A stretch of 64,000 nt of DNA from Peptococcaceae bacterium BICA1-7 (GTDB taxonomy: Bacteria > Bacillota > Desulfotomaculia > Desulfotomaculales > Desulfocucumaceae). This document shows positions 23,115 through 28,772 of this stretch, piece by piece. The notes beneath the pieces are model-generated. The model was given only the letters and a program-made list of their open reading frames with translations, made no database searches and was not told the DNA's origin. The stretch spans positions 186,001 through 250,000 of the forward strand of contig JUEB01000009.1 of assembly GCA_000802095.1 (NCBI GenBank), written 5' to 3'. Position 1 is the first letter of the stretch. Each line of letters begins with the position of its first letter. Both the position numbers and the translations under genes were made by a program.

Positions 23115-26018
23115 TTATTGATTAAGATTCCCGGCAACTCCAGCAAGCCATTCCGAAATTTTATTCCTGACCGCAGAAAGATCACCCCGGAAGTGACTCT
23201 TTAAGGGCAGAGAGCCTAAAAACTTCCTCCCGTAGCCCTTCTCGGCCAACCTCCTGTCCAGCACCACCACCACCCCCCGGTCCCGCTCAGTCCTTATAAG
23301 CCTTCCAAATCCCTGCTTAAATCTTATTACCGCCATAGGCAGATAGTAGTCGCCAAAGGAACTCCTTCCCAACGCATTCAGGTCTTCAATCCTGGCCTCT
23401 ATTACCGGGGCCGAGGGAGAAGGAAAGGGCAGCTTCACCATGATCACACTGGAAAGACTTTCACCGGGAATATCGATTCCCTCCCAGAAGCTGGCAGTTC
23501 CCATTAAAACAGATTTTTTAAGCCTTATAAAATCCTCCACCAGACGGGACCTGTTGCCGTCAATATTATGGCCGAGAACACTAATGCCCTTTTCTTCCAG
23601 AGAAGACTTTAAATATCCGTATACCTCCCTCAGCACTCTGTGGGAGGTGAATAGAACCAGTGTCCGTCCACCCAGTTCCATAACCAGCTCTTCCAGGGCC
23701 GCTCCGGTTTCCAAAAGATATTTGCGGCCGGCCTCGGGTCCCTGCAGGGGCAGGCTGTTGACAAGACACAAGAGGGCCTGTTTTTCATACTCAAAAGGAG
23801 ACTCGATGGTACTTTTAGCCACCTTTATGGCAGCCACCCGGTCTATGCCCACCCGTTCAGCGAAAAAATCAAAGCTGCCGTTGGTGGTAAGTGTTGCCGA
23901 GGTCATCACCACCGGTCCGGCGCAGGAAAAAAGCCTGTCGTAAAGAAGCTCACCCACCCTTACCGGGGAGGCGTTCAAAGAAACGTGGCGCCATTCTCCC
24001 TGGCCCGACACCGATATCCAGTAAACAAAGGACTGGTCACTGTATCCGTATACAAATTCCAGGCAGTCCAGCATCTCCTCCCCCAGGCTGACCGCCTGTA
24101 CATAATCCTTTGCTTTCTCGGACCATGATTCATCTTCCGCGGCCCACCCGCTCAAAAGTTCGGTAATCTTTCTCAGGCCTTCCAGCACAGTCCTTGTCCT
24201 GAATATAAGGTTACTCAGCTCTCCCCAGGGCAGACCGGAGCCGTCTCCACTGATATCTTCACTTCTTATCCTGTAGCTGTGGTGATCACCCTCGGCTGAG
24301 CCTTTTCCCCTCAGCACAAAACTCCCGGCGGCAGCGAAAAACTGATCCGCTGTGCTGCGCAGCCTGCCTGTTTCTTCCCGGACCCCAACCAGGCAGTTCA
24401 TCCAAATATCCTGGTCTGACGGGGGAGCGGTCTCCCAGCTCTTTGACACCAGCCGTCCCGACCTGTTAAGCCAGCGCCGCATGTCCCCCCGGGACACATG
24501 TTTGCCCAGCTGTTCGGTGGCCGCGTCTTCCAAGTGGTGCGCCTCGTCTATCACCAGTGGCCCAAAGGCGGGCAGAACCATGTTGCCTGTCTTTATATCG
24601 GAGAAAAGGAGGGCGTGATTGGTAACTATTACACCGGAGGACTCCGCCTCTCTTTTGGCCCTGGCCACAAAGCACCGGCCAGGATAGTACCGGCAGCCGG
24701 ACCCCATGCAGCTATAGCTGTCGGCGCATATATTAATCCACATCTCCTCTTCCTGAAAGCCTAAATTCACCTCTATTTTATCCCCGCTTGAGGTCTCATT
24801 AGCCCACACCAATATCCTTGCCAAGAAAAGCGCTTCCGGCCCCGTCCACCTTCCCTCGGACAATGAGGCAGCCCATTTTCTCATACAGAGATAATTTGAT
24901 CGGCCCTTGGCCAGGGCTGTTTTTACATCTATTCCAAGACACTCCTTAACCATGGGTATATCCCTGTACCACAGCTGGTCCTGAAGATTTATTGTTTTTG
25001 TGGCTATGACCACCCTGGGCCCTCCCCCGGCGGCCCAAAGCAGGGCCGGAACAAGATAGGCAAGTGACTTCCCGGTTCCAGTTCCGGCCTCAACCAGAAG
25101 GAACCTTTCTTCATTAAAAGTCCTGGCCACCTCGACGGACATCTGTATCTGGCCGTGCCTGGTCTCAAAAGAGGGCATACCGCCCGCCAGCATGCCTGCC
25201 CCGGATAAAATATTCCTTACCTCCTCCGGGTCCACATAGCCTTTGACTCCGCTCCTTCTATAGAATTCCCGGCCTTCCTCACCGCCAGGAGAAAAATGTT
25301 GTTCAAACACGTTAAGGCCCCGGCTCACACCGCTTAAACCAGAAATAACCTCACTCCACGGTGACCCTGCCCTTTCAAGAAAAGCTGGAAGATATGCCAG
25401 CACATTTCCGTCCAGCTGCCGGAGATATTCGGCCAGCTTATCATACAGGAAAATGACTGCCCTGGCATCGTCCATAGCCCGGTGGAAAGAGGCGGCAAAG
25501 CCCAGCCGGGCGCAGAGGTCAGGCAGACTGTGGCTGCTGGCGGTAGGCATCAGTGTTCTGGCCAGCTCAAGGGTATCATATCTGCTGTTGGGCAGAGGTT
25601 TTCCCAGTGCTCTTTCCAAAAAACCCATATCAAAACCAATACAGTGGCCCAGAATGTTTTCCCCTTCTACAAAAGAAAGCACGGACTCTTCCAGCTGTTC
25701 GAACCGGGGAGCCCCTGCCAGCATTTCCTCGTCTATACCGGTCAATTCTTTTATTTTTAAGGGCAACTTTTTTTCCGGCCTGACCAGAGAGTGCAGGCTG
25801 TCAACAACACGTCCGCCCTCCACCTTTATTAAACCTATTTCAATTATGTCATCCCAATCCGGACTAAGTCCGGTAGTTTCCAGATCAAGCGCAACATACC
25901 GCTCCAATAGAAATTCACTCCCGCTGCCTTTTGTCCACCGGAATATATTCTTTTCGGGCCGATGTATTTCCTCTATGGTATTACTGTCCCATATTTCCTG
26001 AATCATTGTTCTGTTCAT
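23115..26018 (-). CDS. dinG: DinG-family helicase with N-terminal DnaQ-like exonuclease domain
   Basis: About 967 residues. The N-terminal third is a DEDDh 3'-5' exonuclease (ALDLETTGLSPDWDDIIEIG, later GHCIGFDMGF and HRAMDDARA). The rest is an XPD/DinG-type SF2 helicase: Walker A VEAGTGTGKSLAYLVPA, a cysteine cluster likely to hold an Fe-S centre (CADSYSCMGSGCRYYPGRC plus CMRKW), DEAHH box, and late motifs (ASFWEGIDIPG, QGFGRLIR). Probably involved in DNA repair or R-loop/secondary structure processing. The start is uncertain: ATGs at 26039, 26018 and 26006 all lie inside the end of the next upstream gene. Confidence 0.9.
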   Translation of the reverse strand: MNRTMIQEIWDSNTIEEIHRPEKNIFRWTKGSGSEFLLERYVALDLETTGLSPDWDDIIEIGLIKVEGGRVVDSLHSLVRPEKKLPLKIKELTGIDEEMLAGAPRFEQLEESVLSFVEGENILGHCIGFDMGFLERALGKPLPNSRYDTLELARTLMPTASSHSLPDLCARLGFAASFHRAMDDARAVIFLYDKLAEYLRQLDGNVLAYLPAFLERAGSPWSEVISGLSGVSRGLNVFEQHFSPGGEEGREFYRRSGVKGYVDPEEVRNILSGAGMLAGGMPSFETRHGQIQMSVEVARTFNEERFLLVEAGTGTGKSLAYLVPALLWAAGGGPRVVIATKTINLQDQLWYRDIPMVKECLGIDVKTALAKGRSNYLCMRKWAASLSEGRWTGPEALFLARILVWANETSSGDKIEVNLGFQEEEMWINICADSYSCMGSGCRYYPGRCFVARAKREAESSGVIVTNHALLFSDIKTGNMVLPAFGPLVIDEAHHLEDAATEQLGKHVSRGDMRRWLNRSGRLVSKSWETAPPSDQDIWMNCLVGVREETGRLRSTADQFFAAAGSFVLRGKGSAEGDHHSYRIRSEDISGDGSGLPWGELSNLIFRTRTVLEGLRKITELLSGWAAEDESWSEKAKDYVQAVSLGEEMLDCLEFVYGYSDQSFVYWISVSGQGEWRHVSLNASPVRVGELLYDRLFSCAGPVVMTSATLTTNGSFDFFAERVGIDRVAAIKVAKSTIESPFEYEKQALLCLVNSLPLQGPEAGRKYLLETGAALEELVMELGGRTLVLFTSHRVLREVYGYLKSSLEEKGISVLGHNIDGNRSRLVEDFIRLKKSVLMGTASFWEGIDIPGESLSSVIMVKLPFPSPSAPVIEARIEDLNALGRSSFGDYYLPMAVIRFKQGFGRLIRTERDRGVVVVLDRRLAEKGYGRKFLGSLPLKSHFRGDLSAVRNKISEWLAGVAGNLNQ

Positions 26019-26511
26019 TCTTTTTCTTTTCATCCACAAAATTTTTGACCAGGCTGTTTAAAGGCTGCAGTAACGCGGTTAAATCCGCCTGGGGCTGCTC
26101 CACCCCTGTTTTCAAAACCTTTTTGCCTTCATCGTCTTTCTTTAAAACCATTCCCACATTTTCAACAGAAAACTGTATTCCGGTGGCCACCGCTGACAGA
26201 ACCTGCCCGAACACTCTGGCTCCCTGAATAATTTTATCCAGCATTTTTTCCTCTTCCCTAGTTTTTGAAAGCTCCACCTGAGTGTCCATCACACGCTGCA
26301 GGCTATCATTCAGGTATTCTAATTTCCTGTTTAATTCATCCTCATATTTCTTTTCAGACTCTACCCGGGCCATTACTCTGGACAGGCTATCCAGAGAATC
26401 CATCATTTTTTCCATCTTGTCATTTTCGGTCAGCTGTCTTTCATACATTTTTTCCATTTTATTAACCAGTTTTTCTACAGAAATAACAAGGTTGTCTTCG
26501 GGTTGGTCCAT
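25981..26511 (-). CDS. Unrecognised coiled-coil protein, paralogue 1
   Basis: A 176-residue, highly charged protein. Residues about 10-80 are predicted coiled coil (EKLVNKMEKMYERQLTENDKM and onward), then an amphipathic, less charged helix (GQVLSAVATGIQFSVENVGMVL) and a C-terminal DLTALLQPLNSLVKNF motif before a Lys-rich tail. The ATG at 26511 is preceded by GGGAGGTGG. Its layout matches the gene at 26913-27545, whose tail reads DLMSLLKPVNAIVSSL. It overlaps the dinG start. The layout recalls phasin-like or scaffold proteins, but I cannot assign a family. Confidence 0.7.
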   Translation of the reverse strand: MDQPEDNLVISVEKLVNKMEKMYERQLTENDKMEKMMDSLDSLSRVMARVESEKKYEDELNRKLEYLNDSLQRVMDTQVELSKTREEEKMLDKIIQGARVFGQVLSAVATGIQFSVENVGMVLKKDDEGKKVLKTGVEQPQADLTALLQPLNSLVKNFVDEKKKNEQNNDSGNMGQ

Positions 26512-26641
26512 TTTACCACCTCCCACTCCTGGAGTTATTTAATCTTATTTTTCTCTGCGGCTGAATAGACCGTTATATGACAGCAAGTCGCAAAATGGAC
26601 ACTGCCGTCATACAGTAGAATAAAAAAAGGAGGCGTAGTAT

Positions 26642-26875
26642 TTGAATAAACTGCCAATTGACATGGATACCCTTCCGGAGCCAATAAAAAGTATGGTCCA
26701 GAGTCTGGATCCGCAAATGATTGAAAATATGCTTGCCATGTACGACCCGGCAACTATGTCACTAATGATGAATTCTGTTTTCGCAATGCTAAAGGATACC
26801 CTTCCTCCTGATCAACTGGAGGGCATTAAGGAAATGATGGATAATCTGCTTAAAATAATGCCTCAGAAGGAATAA
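26642..26875 (+). CDS. Unrecognised methionine-rich small protein
   Basis: 77 residues, very Met-rich (12 Met), acidic, with PEPIKSMVQSLDP and KDTLPPDQLEGIKEMMDNLLKI, which look like two short amphipathic helical repeats. TTG start at 26642 with AAAGGAGG eight bases upstream. It is transcribed opposite to its neighbours, between two paralogous coiled-coil genes, and ends at a strong terminator (26877-26913). Function unknown. Confidence 0.65.
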   Translation: MNKLPIDMDTLPEPIKSMVQSLDPQMIENMLAMYDPATMSLMMNSVFAMLKDTLPPDQLEGIKEMMDNLLKIMPQKE

Positions 26876-26876
26876 C

Positions 26877-26913
26877 AAAAAGGGCTGCAATTTTTATTGC
26901 GGCCCTCTTTTTT
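26877..26913 (+). terminator. Terminator between convergent small genes
   Basis: AGGGCTGCAA (26881-26890) pairs with TTGCGGCCCT (26897-26906), followed by CTTTTTTC; on the other strand TTTTT also follows, so it can serve both the + strand gene at 26642 and the - strand gene at 26913. Confidence 0.85.
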
Positions 26914-27545
26914 CATGTCTTCTCTTCTTCTTTTTTGTTTGCAGCCGGGACGGCCTTCACTACAGTGATCCCCGCGGTTTGTTCCTTCTGGGCCGCCTGT
27001 TCGGCCGCATCCTCTGCTTTTGTCTCGGGCGGTCTGGTGGTTTCCACTGGATCGGGGGTCTGCTGTTTGGATATAAGAGAGCTTACAATGGCATTGACCG
27101 GCTTCAATAGCGACATCAGGTCCAGTCCTTTGGACTCGTTTTGCTGATAGCCCCGGTTTCCGGAAGTCTGGTTCTTTATGACGCCAGTTACTGTTTCCAT
27201 CATCACCTGGAGGCTTGAGGCCACAATTTCTATGACCTGCCCTGTAGCCTTGGCCACATTCAGCACTCCTGACACGGTTTCGGAAACGCTCTTGGTCTTA
27301 ATTTTACCCTCTTCTTCCGTACCCCTCTCCAGGTAACCATATACCTGGGTTATCTTCCTGGCCATTATCTTTTCCTTTTTTTTATGCTGTTCCAGGCGAG
27401 ACATGGCCTCTGTCAATTTATCCAAAGAGTGTAAGGCCTTCCGGGATCTTTCATATTCATCGATCTTTTCACTGTTTAGTCGCTCGATCTTTTTTAACAG
27501 CCCATCCAGTACATCTCCAACCTGCCCGTCCGTTTCAAACTTCAT
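26913..27545 (-). CDS. Unrecognised coiled-coil protein, paralogue 2
   Basis: 210 residues: an N-terminal coiled coil (about residues 8-70, DVLDGLLKKIERLNSEKIDEYE), a weakly amphipathic, Val/Ala-rich middle (SGVLNVAKATGQVIEIVASSL), the DLMSLLKPVNAIVSSLISK motif shared with the protein at 25981, and a Pro/Ala/Glu-rich tail. The ATG at 27545 follows AAGGAAG; a GTG at 27584 would add 13 residues but has no ribosome site. No signal peptide or membrane helix. Function unknown. Confidence 0.7.
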   Translation of the reverse strand: MKFETDGQVGDVLDGLLKKIERLNSEKIDEYERSRKALHSLDKLTEAMSRLEQHKKKEKIMARKITQVYGYLERGTEEEGKIKTKSVSETVSGVLNVAKATGQVIEIVASSLQVMMETVTGVIKNQTSGNRGYQQNESKGLDLMSLLKPVNAIVSSLISKQQTPDPVETTRPPETKAEDAAEQAAQKEQTAGITVVKAVPAANKKEEEKT

Positions 27546-27594
27546 ACCGTCCACTTCCTTAATAAGGGTTTTCACTGCGGGCACCTTGGTGATT

Positions 27595-27624
27595 AAAGGG
27601 CTACACTAAAAGCGTAGCCCTTTT
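27595..27624 (-). terminator. Terminator between the Cys-rich membrane peptide and coiled-coil gene
   Basis: AAAGGGCTAC pairs with GTAGCCCTTTT around a nine-base loop. On the minus strand it follows the stop of the gene at 27642-27821. Confidence 0.7.
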
Positions 27625-27641
27625 AGCAAAAAAGAGTCTTA

Positions 27642-27821
27642 TTAGCAGGCGGCGCAGCAGCAGAGTGCCAGCCCGATGAAAATGATGGCACCTGCCAGGC
27701 ATGGGGAAATCAGGCCGCATAGCAATAAAGCAATGGCCACCAGGAAAAGTAAGCAGCAGATAAAAATGTTAAATTTTCCAGAACCAAAATGATCCTTGAA
27801 CACAGACATGGCGTCACTCAC
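27642..27821 (-). CDS. Small Cys-rich membrane peptide
   Basis: A 59-residue protein from GTG 27821 to TAA 27642, with GGAGG (27830-27834) eight bases upstream. After a short polar head (MSDAMSVFKDHFGSGKFN) it is almost wholly hydrophobic, with seven Cys including ICC in the first helix and CCCAAC at the very C-terminus. Two membrane helices are likely. The terminal Cys cluster could bind metal or be lipidated; neither is established. It ends at its own terminator. Confidence 0.65.
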   Translation of the reverse strand: MSDAMSVFKDHFGSGKFNIFICCLLFLVAIALLLCGLISPCLAGAIIFIGLALCCCAAC

Positions 27822-27902: not shown

Positions 27903-28772
27903 TTGTTACAGGATGAATATAATTGTTGTCTAAAACAGATTATTAAGGGATATTACAAAAAGGGGCTGATGGGTGCTGTGGTTTGTTATAGCGGGAAAAT
28001 TTACAGTTATGAGGATATTGAGAAAGCCGCTGACTTTATTGAATTTTTATTTGGCAAGAACTTTTTTAAAAGTGGCGTTGAAAGGATTAAGGACTCCGAC
28101 CCGTCCGGCGCTGGAATGGGCCGGGAATACAGTGGTAAGGAAGAGGCCAAATTATTCCTGGCCTGGCACAGGGTCAGGGAGGAACTGGCTTTCGGAGGTC
28201 TTGACGGAGTCTACAGGCCGGGCCGGTACGGAGCTCTATTGGGTTCCCTATGGGAAGACCTGATGCCACTGTCAAAAGTTCCGGGTATTGAGGAGACTGC
28301 AGCCGGGCTTATGGATAACCATGCCTTTGAAAAAACTATTTTTTTACTTTTTGTGGCCTCAAGGCTTTTCATCTCGCAAAAAGATATAATATTTCCAGGA
28401 AATGGCCTCAACTGTTTCTACGATCAAAATTATATTTACAAGTGTGTTTTTCCCGCGCCTGGACAAATATACCCTTTTTATTCCCCGGAGGAAATAACGG
28501 CCGCCTCCCAAATAGCCGGCTGCGAGGATAGACAGCAGCTGCGGTATATTGATATGACCCGCTCAGATAAGCCTCTTTCCCACTATGAGGGAATTCTCCG
28601 GGATAACAGTCTTTTGGAAAGCGGCACACTGGCAGCTGTCTTATGTAAAATAGAATTTCCCTCGGGAACTGCAGGATATTACAGAAAGGTGTGCTGCCGC
28701 CCGGCAGTAAATGAGAAAACCTCCGGCCTATCACAGGCCGAAGGTTTCTTAAAACTCAATCTTCCGGATTAA
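27903..28772 (+). CDS. Unrecognised 289-residue protein
   Basis: A soluble-looking protein without a domain I can name. Visible features: a tyrosine-rich start (NCCLKQIIKGYYKKG), a mid-region hydrophobic helix (HAFEKTIFLLFVASRLFI), and a tyrosine- and Cys-bearing second half (CFYDQNYIYKCVFPAPGQIYPFYSPEE). Start is uncertain: TTG at 27903 has no clear ribosome site. It ends in a hairpin (28717-28750) that overlaps the last codons. It is convergent with the second meaB gene, eight bases away. Confidence 0.6.
   Translation: MLQDEYNCCLKQIIKGYYKKGLMGAVVCYSGKIYSYEDIEKAADFIEFLFGKNFFKSGVERIKDSDPSGAGMGREYSGKEEAKLFLAWHRVREELAFGGLDGVYRPGRYGALLGSLWEDLMPLSKVPGIEETAAGLMDNHAFEKTIFLLFVASRLFISQKDIIFPGNGLNCFYDQNYIYKCVFPAPGQIYPFYSPEEITAASQIAGCEDRQQLRYIDMTRSDKPLSHYEGILRDNSLLESGTLAAVLCKIEFPSGTAGYYRKVCCRPAVNEKTSGLSQAEGFLKLNLPD
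28717..28750. terminator. Hairpin within the 3' end of the gene at 27903
   Basis: AAACCTCCGGCCT pairs with AGGCCGAAGGTTT (one mismatch) around ATCAC. It may stop transcription from both convergent genes, although the T-runs are short. Confidence 0.5.

Follow-up and report, generated by a model that had tools for sequence, protein, structure and literature searches.

A conserved set of small genes beside a dinG-like gene in Peptococcaceae bacterium BICA1-7 is a probable spore-envelope module

What kind of system is encoded by four small genes that lie beside a dinG-like gene in Peptococcaceae bacterium BICA1-7? The genes are found in a 64,000-nucleotide stretch of contig JUEB01000009.1 (assembly GCA_000802095.1, forward strand, positions 186,001 to 250,000), referred to below as the window, and they encode two coiled-coil proteins (P0001 and P0002), a Met-rich helical peptide (P0003) and a small membrane peptide (P0004; Table 1). 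A first-pass annotation, made from the sequence alone, had suggested that they may form a particle-, granule- or membrane-binding system, phasin- or scaffold-like, of no nameable family. As described below, P0001 and P0002 are true paralogues of one unnamed family, here called c0, and the gene set is conserved together. On the basis of its promoters, its yabG/SipL neighbourhoods and its association with spoIVA, the cluster is probably a mother-cell spore-envelope (coat-type) module, which would originally have had a protease of its own. It is most likely, as far as sequence comparison can tell, that the module is lineage-specific and is made late in sporulation, with products bound for the coat or a membrane-proximal layer.

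We examined neighbourhoods of up to ~18 kb around c0, with script-made gene calls, in 42 genomes, namely 40 of the 42 carriers in the window's class (without G082 and G083) and two carriers from outside it, G230 and G291. In 34 of the 42, counted by eye after exclusion of a spurious open reading frame (ORF) matched by the filter in G047, an ORF for a small hydrophobic peptide ends no more than 450 bases upstream of the first c0 gene, as against 19 of 577 control genes of the same loci. G068 also has an upstream membrane peptide that was missed by the filter, and the f7 genomes G047, G048 and G049 have a similar peptide adjacent to c0 in another orientation or order. These upstream peptides share, by eye, an N-terminal pattern such as MxxVVE or VSDALxxxK. 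As examined by profile searches, a gene for an S8 subtilisin-type protease adjoins c0 in 28 of the 42 neighbourhoods, and a P0003-like gene in 21, or 22 if one weak match is included. The S8 gene is absent from 13 neighbourhoods and decayed in one more (G037); it is not found beside c0 in the window's family (6/6 carriers), f10, f7 (5/5 read) and G291. In the families f11 and f15, membrane peptide, c0, S8 gene, facing P0003-like gene (where found) and second c0 follow one another in this sequence, with dinG next in one case, so that the arrangement in the window is explained as loss of the S8 gene. The set therefore travels together, a point that the first-pass annotation had proposed to check by a neighbourhood survey.

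The leader of P0004 carries a predicted sigma-K-type promoter (Table 1), and in the orthologous leaders TGTAACA, a spacer of 15-16 bases and TCATATTTTA or a close variant are nearly constant. The pattern AC, 15-18 bases, CATAnnnTA was present in 32 of 39 membrane-peptide leaders. It occurs upstream of 15 of 603 other genes, and shuffled leaders show it in 73 of 3,900 cases. Note that this pattern was fixed after the leaders had been inspected, but in the form of the Bacillus consensus. Sigma-K promoters have AC at -35 where sigma-E promoters have ATA, and the -10 elements are similar (excerpt of PMC3789822); the AC in the P0004 leaders therefore points to the sigma-K form. The other genes with the pattern were mostly SipL-like, YabG, P0003-like, small hydrophobic peptide and other sporulation-locus genes, and the pattern was found upstream of none of the dinG (0/9), trxB (0/10), meaB (0/18), ispE (0/9) and glmU (0/7) genes. 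CATAnnnTA also precedes P0003-like genes in 10 of 20 cases versus 35 of 603 control genes. No sigma-K-type promoter of their own was found for the c0 genes (0/53) or the S8 genes (0/29), which is consistent with one operon. The genome of the window has three sites with the promoter pattern, and the two other than that of P0004 precede genes with no traceable tie to sporulation.

The neighbours of the module in several relatives point in the same direction. In G230, which belongs to another class, membrane peptide, P0003-like gene, S8 gene and c0 stand in one row between yabG-like and SipL-like genes. In f6 and f8, membrane peptide, c0 and S8 gene are clustered with genes for SPOCS/SipL-plus-LysM proteins (one gene of an f6 locus was confirmed by Pfam), and the f8 clusters also hold yabG, for which the one gene tested matched TIGR02855 at 338.4 bits (cut-off 270.4). 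These f6 and f8 clusters lie upstream of ispE, spoVG and glmU, as recognised by eye. In C. difficile, veg and sipL come after yabG, and both yabG and sipL have a part in coat/exosporium assembly (excerpt of PMC10681294). In the window itself, the module is not beside yabG.

The distribution of c0 was compared with that of spoIVA. With a single sequence as query, c0 turned up in 6 of the 8 genomes in the window's family and in 32 of the 113 in its order. A 28-sequence profile raised the count to 42 of 113 for the class; order and class are the identical genome set here, and gene content suggests that the class is Desulfotomaculia. Of 398 genomes drawn evenly from the phylum, 14 gave c0 matches, 10 of them in the window's class. 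Outside the class the clear matches are G230 (E=2.9e-25) and G291 (E=3.3e-25), and marginal ones in G234 and G392 (E about 7e-4) were left uncounted. spoIVA is present in 104 of the 113 class genomes, comprising 42/42 carriers of c0 and 62/71 non-carriers, and all nine genomes without spoIVA lack c0 (Fisher p=0.025, kinship ignored). Within the window's family, spoIVA was found in 6/6 carriers and 0/2 non-carriers (p=0.036, kinship again ignored).

Several observations weigh against a role in the spore envelope. Because spoIVA is nearly universal in the class, its association with c0 is weak, and six of the nine spoIVA-less genomes are less than 85% complete. Since c0 is absent from 62 of the 104 class genomes with spoIVA, the module does not belong to the core sporulation machinery. 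Seven of the 39 leaders lack the promoter pattern, and with no such promoter at any c0 gene, expression of P0001 would depend on read-through past P0003 or on another promoter. Moreover, the absence or decay of the S8 gene described above means that the set can do without the protease.

The first-pass annotation had noted that P0001 and P0002 share a layout and a motif, and this was borne out by homology: the two proteins align with 28% identity over 151 residues (E=1.5e-14), so that the motif D-L-x-x-L-L-x-P-x-N-x-x-V, which reads DLTALLQPLNSLV in one copy and DLMSLLKPVNAIV in the other, is shared beyond chance. In the 28-sequence alignment of the family, its D, L, L and P are each at least 90% conserved, and the conserved parts of c0 are the second helix (consensus RKIIxGAKxTGQVIEIVAxSxQxMxDxI) and the DLxxxLxPxN helix. 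The structure model of P0001 has a long helix at residues 4-85 and further helices at 90-131 and 144-168, with a predicted local distance difference test (pLDDT) score of 74.5 and a predicted template modelling (pTM) score of 0.32, so the details of this modelled fold are weak. In a tree of 53 c0 copies, with several very long branches and an unsettled deep order, the two window copies fall in separate clades. The P0002 clade spans the window's family and an f10 copy (support 95/92), indicating that the duplication predates the window's family.

Searches of P0001-P0004 against Pfam, NCBIfam and PHROG gave no model near its curated cut-off or with a convincing E-value, and a search of PDB sequences gave no convincing relative of known structure; the earlier statement that none of the proteins has a nameable family accordingly stands. 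When 28 aligned c0 members were compared with Pfam, matches were only weak (92 families matched, best 25 inspected). The weak profile and PDB matches were largely to coiled-coil or designed helical proteins, the best of them being 7qnl (E=3.8e-4, labelled DARPIN).

These searches also bear on the idea of phasin-like granule coat proteins. The helical architecture of the c0 proteins, a coiled coil plus an amphipathic helix, would suit it, but no phasin model matched the window proteins at E up to 10 or appeared among the best 25 of the 92 families matched by the 28 members. In addition, the polyhydroxyalkanoate (PHA) synthase domain PF07167 (PhaC_N) was found in 0/8 genomes of the window's family, although it was detected in the control, Caulobacter vibrioides. 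We give this explanation almost no credence and reject a phasin or granule-coat role. A scaffold or membrane-associated role, the other part of the first-pass suggestion, is still the best molecular guess. That annotation was also right in grouping the two coiled-coil proteins and in taking the genes as a set. From the sequence alone it could not reveal the partner protease of the relatives or the sporulation context given by the promoters, the yabG/SipL neighbourhoods and spoIVA.

The protease of the relatives allows a further explanation to be weighed, in which c0 and the membrane peptide hold the S8 protease in the spore and the protease acts at germination as Csp proteases do. Csp proteases are subtilases required for germination (excerpt of PMC3567191), and the S8 gene stands beside c0 in most neighbourhoods. 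The partner protease is a subtilisin with a prodomain, as judged by sequence: it matched PF00082 at 200-212 bits in three proteins tested, its alignment with pro-subtilisin E (3whi, residues 25-358) spans both prodomain and catalytic domain, and across 12 aligned sequences its catalytic D, H and S do not vary, nor does the Asn of AAAGNDG. It thus resembles CspB in being a subtilase with an N-terminal prodomain in a sporulation context. However, the PF00082 match is an uninterrupted 244 residues (residues 110-353) covering the whole model, and so lacks the jellyroll insertion that marks Csp by the criterion in the same excerpt; the protein also scores far below the Csp model cut-offs. Furthermore, c0 persists without the protease in three families, the window's among them, and C. 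difficile csp is under sigma-E (excerpt of PMC3789822), whereas the promoter here looks like sigma-K. A germination device is therefore improbable.

It is likewise quite improbable that the products work in the mother cell alone, for instance in membrane upkeep or proteolysis ahead of its lysis, without becoming part of the spore. A sigma-K-type promoter would fit any mother-cell gene, and the S8 proteins have no obvious signal peptide by eye, a feature in which they differ from subtilisin E and BPN' (S8 with an I9 prodomain), as does the travel of their gene with c0. The repeated yabG/SipL-like neighbours and the other small hydrophobic peptides suggest envelope assembly instead, although they are not decisive. 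Concerning the window's own genome, no orthologue of the c0-partner protease was found; the only subtilase found there (G000:C22) lies elsewhere and was rejected as an orthologue, being more distant and secreted-looking, with a hydrophobic signal-like start and other neighbours.

For the spore-envelope module, a scaffold can be pictured as follows. The Cys-rich membrane peptide would sit in the membrane around the forespore, and the coiled-coil proteins, with their long coiled coil, uncharged conserved helix and DLxxLLxPxN helix, would attach there and assemble with one another into a scaffold. P0003, on the opposite strand, may be an accessory, and the cytoplasmic-type subtilisin, which carries a prodomain of its own and whose gene adjoins c0 in most relatives, may trim or mature the layer; in the window's family the protease gene is absent and the two old c0 paralogues are kept. 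In its details this picture is tentative, and because the pTM of the model is low, scaffold and membrane binding are guesses. A sharper version, in which the peptide templates c0 polymerisation on the forespore membrane, the subtilisin zymogen cuts the layer, and lineages without the protease keep two paralogues, is doubtful.

SpoVM is a short amphipathic helix that senses membrane curvature. The coat basement formed with SpoIVA and SipL in Bacillus and C. difficile resembles the present module, as pictured above, in combining a small membrane-associated peptide with a self-assembling mother-cell protein, and SipL-like and YabG genes neighbour the module in some relatives. Unlike SpoVM, P0004 is strongly hydrophobic in stretches and has a Cys-rich tail, and c0 has no detectable homology to the SpoIVA or SipL models. 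YabG shares a locus, and probably a regulon, with the module in some relatives, but it is an unrelated cysteine protease (excerpt of PMC10681294).

The coordinates of the features are collected in Table 1. The three minus-strand genes are read in the order P0004, P0002, P0001, followed by the dinG-like gene (named by eye, without a family search), with P0003 opposite, between P0002 and P0001; the end of P0001 overlaps the beginning of this dinG-like gene, whose ORF was taken from the ATG at 26006. All four genes were confirmed at the coordinates, strands and sizes given by the first-pass annotation, including the Cys-rich tail of P0004. Compared with the congener G002, the ratios of nonsynonymous to synonymous substitution rates (dN/dS) are 0.15 for P0001, 0.13 for P0002, 0.15 for P0003 and 0.28 for P0004, indicating that all four are protein-coding genes under purifying selection.

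Table 1. Genes and predicted control elements of the module, with the neighbouring divergent gene (positions in the window).
Feature	Position	Strand	Remarks
P0004, 59-aa small membrane peptide	27642-27821	-	GTG start; Cys-rich tail CCCAAC
P0002, c0 copy a, 210-aa coiled-coil protein	26913-27545	-	ATG start; adjoins membrane peptide
P0003, 77-aa Met-rich helical peptide	26642-26875	+	TTG start, AGGAGG upstream; faces other three
P0001, c0 copy b, 176-aa coiled-coil protein	25981-26511	-	ATG start
Predicted sigma-K-type promoter of P0004	27879-27908	-	TAACA, 16-base spacer, CATATTTTA; sole exact match in window
Inverted repeat directly after predicted transcription start of P0004	27857-27874	-	In most orthologous leaders
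Possible mother-cell promoter of P0003	26590-26617	+	GCAAAA, 13-base spacer, CATACAGTA; -35-like part read by eye
Unnamed 289-aa protein	27903-28772	+	Divergent from module

The inverted repeat in the leader has the form GAACG...CGTTC, often around CCCGGG, with strongly conserved arms. One arm pair is broken in the window, so its genome fails a strict promoter-plus-hairpin pattern that was found in 4 of 8 genomes of the family, in each solely at the P0004 gene. The fold z-scores are modest (mean -1.0 over 29, with 9 below -1.5). Covariation is thin, with two cells changed on both sides and values not above shuffles on most measures; this set comprised 24 of 27 leaders, after exclusion of the divergent f15 leaders L057, L104 and L105, and the f7 leaders L100 and L102 had been dropped earlier. 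The repeat is a possible 5' hairpin of the messenger RNA (mRNA), acting as a stabiliser, or a possible operator; as a conserved hairpin it could keep the mRNA stable at a late stage, as the mother cell dies.

The model of P0003 has four helices (pLDDT 69.5, pTM near 0.33), and its relatives were found in 23 of 113 class genomes by single-sequence search and in 12 of 398 phylum genomes by profile, some of them without c0. In G221 (L147:8296-8765), a P0003-like gene adjoins a membrane peptide whose N-terminus is of the type described above, with neither c0 nor S8 present, and the two may be an older pair. Only the P0003-like gene is left in G060 (L123) where relatives carry membrane peptide, c0 and S8, and in G037 (L046) membrane peptide and c0 are kept and the S8 gene is a decayed remnant. 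These two natural gene losses could be used as tests of function.

Other observations concern the surroundings. Relatives of the 289-aa protein occupy the same place in six carriers of the window's family, with a further weak relative in G067, and no Pfam or NCBIfam model matched it. The loci L044-L052 and L121 are sporulation clusters with YbaB/EbfC-like paralogues, trypsin/NAL1-like and CAP proteins and more tiny hydrophobic peptides, mostly unnamed. JAMCVT010000175.1 (L013), titled as an Actinobacteria metagenome-assembled genome, seems to be the same as contig G002:C162 of the window's genus, with identical gene calls, and its title looks wrong.

A literature search found nothing on the module, as judged by titles and abstract openings and with subscription journals mostly outside its coverage, and no spore proteome of a c0 carrier. 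We take Moorella to be a related group. In the excerpt consulted, a Moorella spore study lists spore proteins and reports no SipL equivalent (PMC8745062), and the part seen of a Desulfotomaculum reducens surfaceome study was of no help on the module (PMC4137172). Spore-surface genes vary so strongly between lineages that, leaving aside four vegetative genes that were co-opted, the genomic sporulation signature contains yabG as its sole gene of the sigma-K regulon (excerpt of PMC10681294).

Taken as a whole, the cluster is a genuine gene module, unnamed wherever we looked, which belongs with the lineage-specific spore-surface genes and is unusual in its composition. Only a few components of the envelope are known in this clade, whose spore formers, to judge by their gene content, are probably sulfate-reducing and syntrophic relatives of Desulfotomaculum. 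The module offers testable candidates in the membrane peptide, the putative scaffold and the partner protease, and the lineages with and without the protease provide a clear natural contrast.

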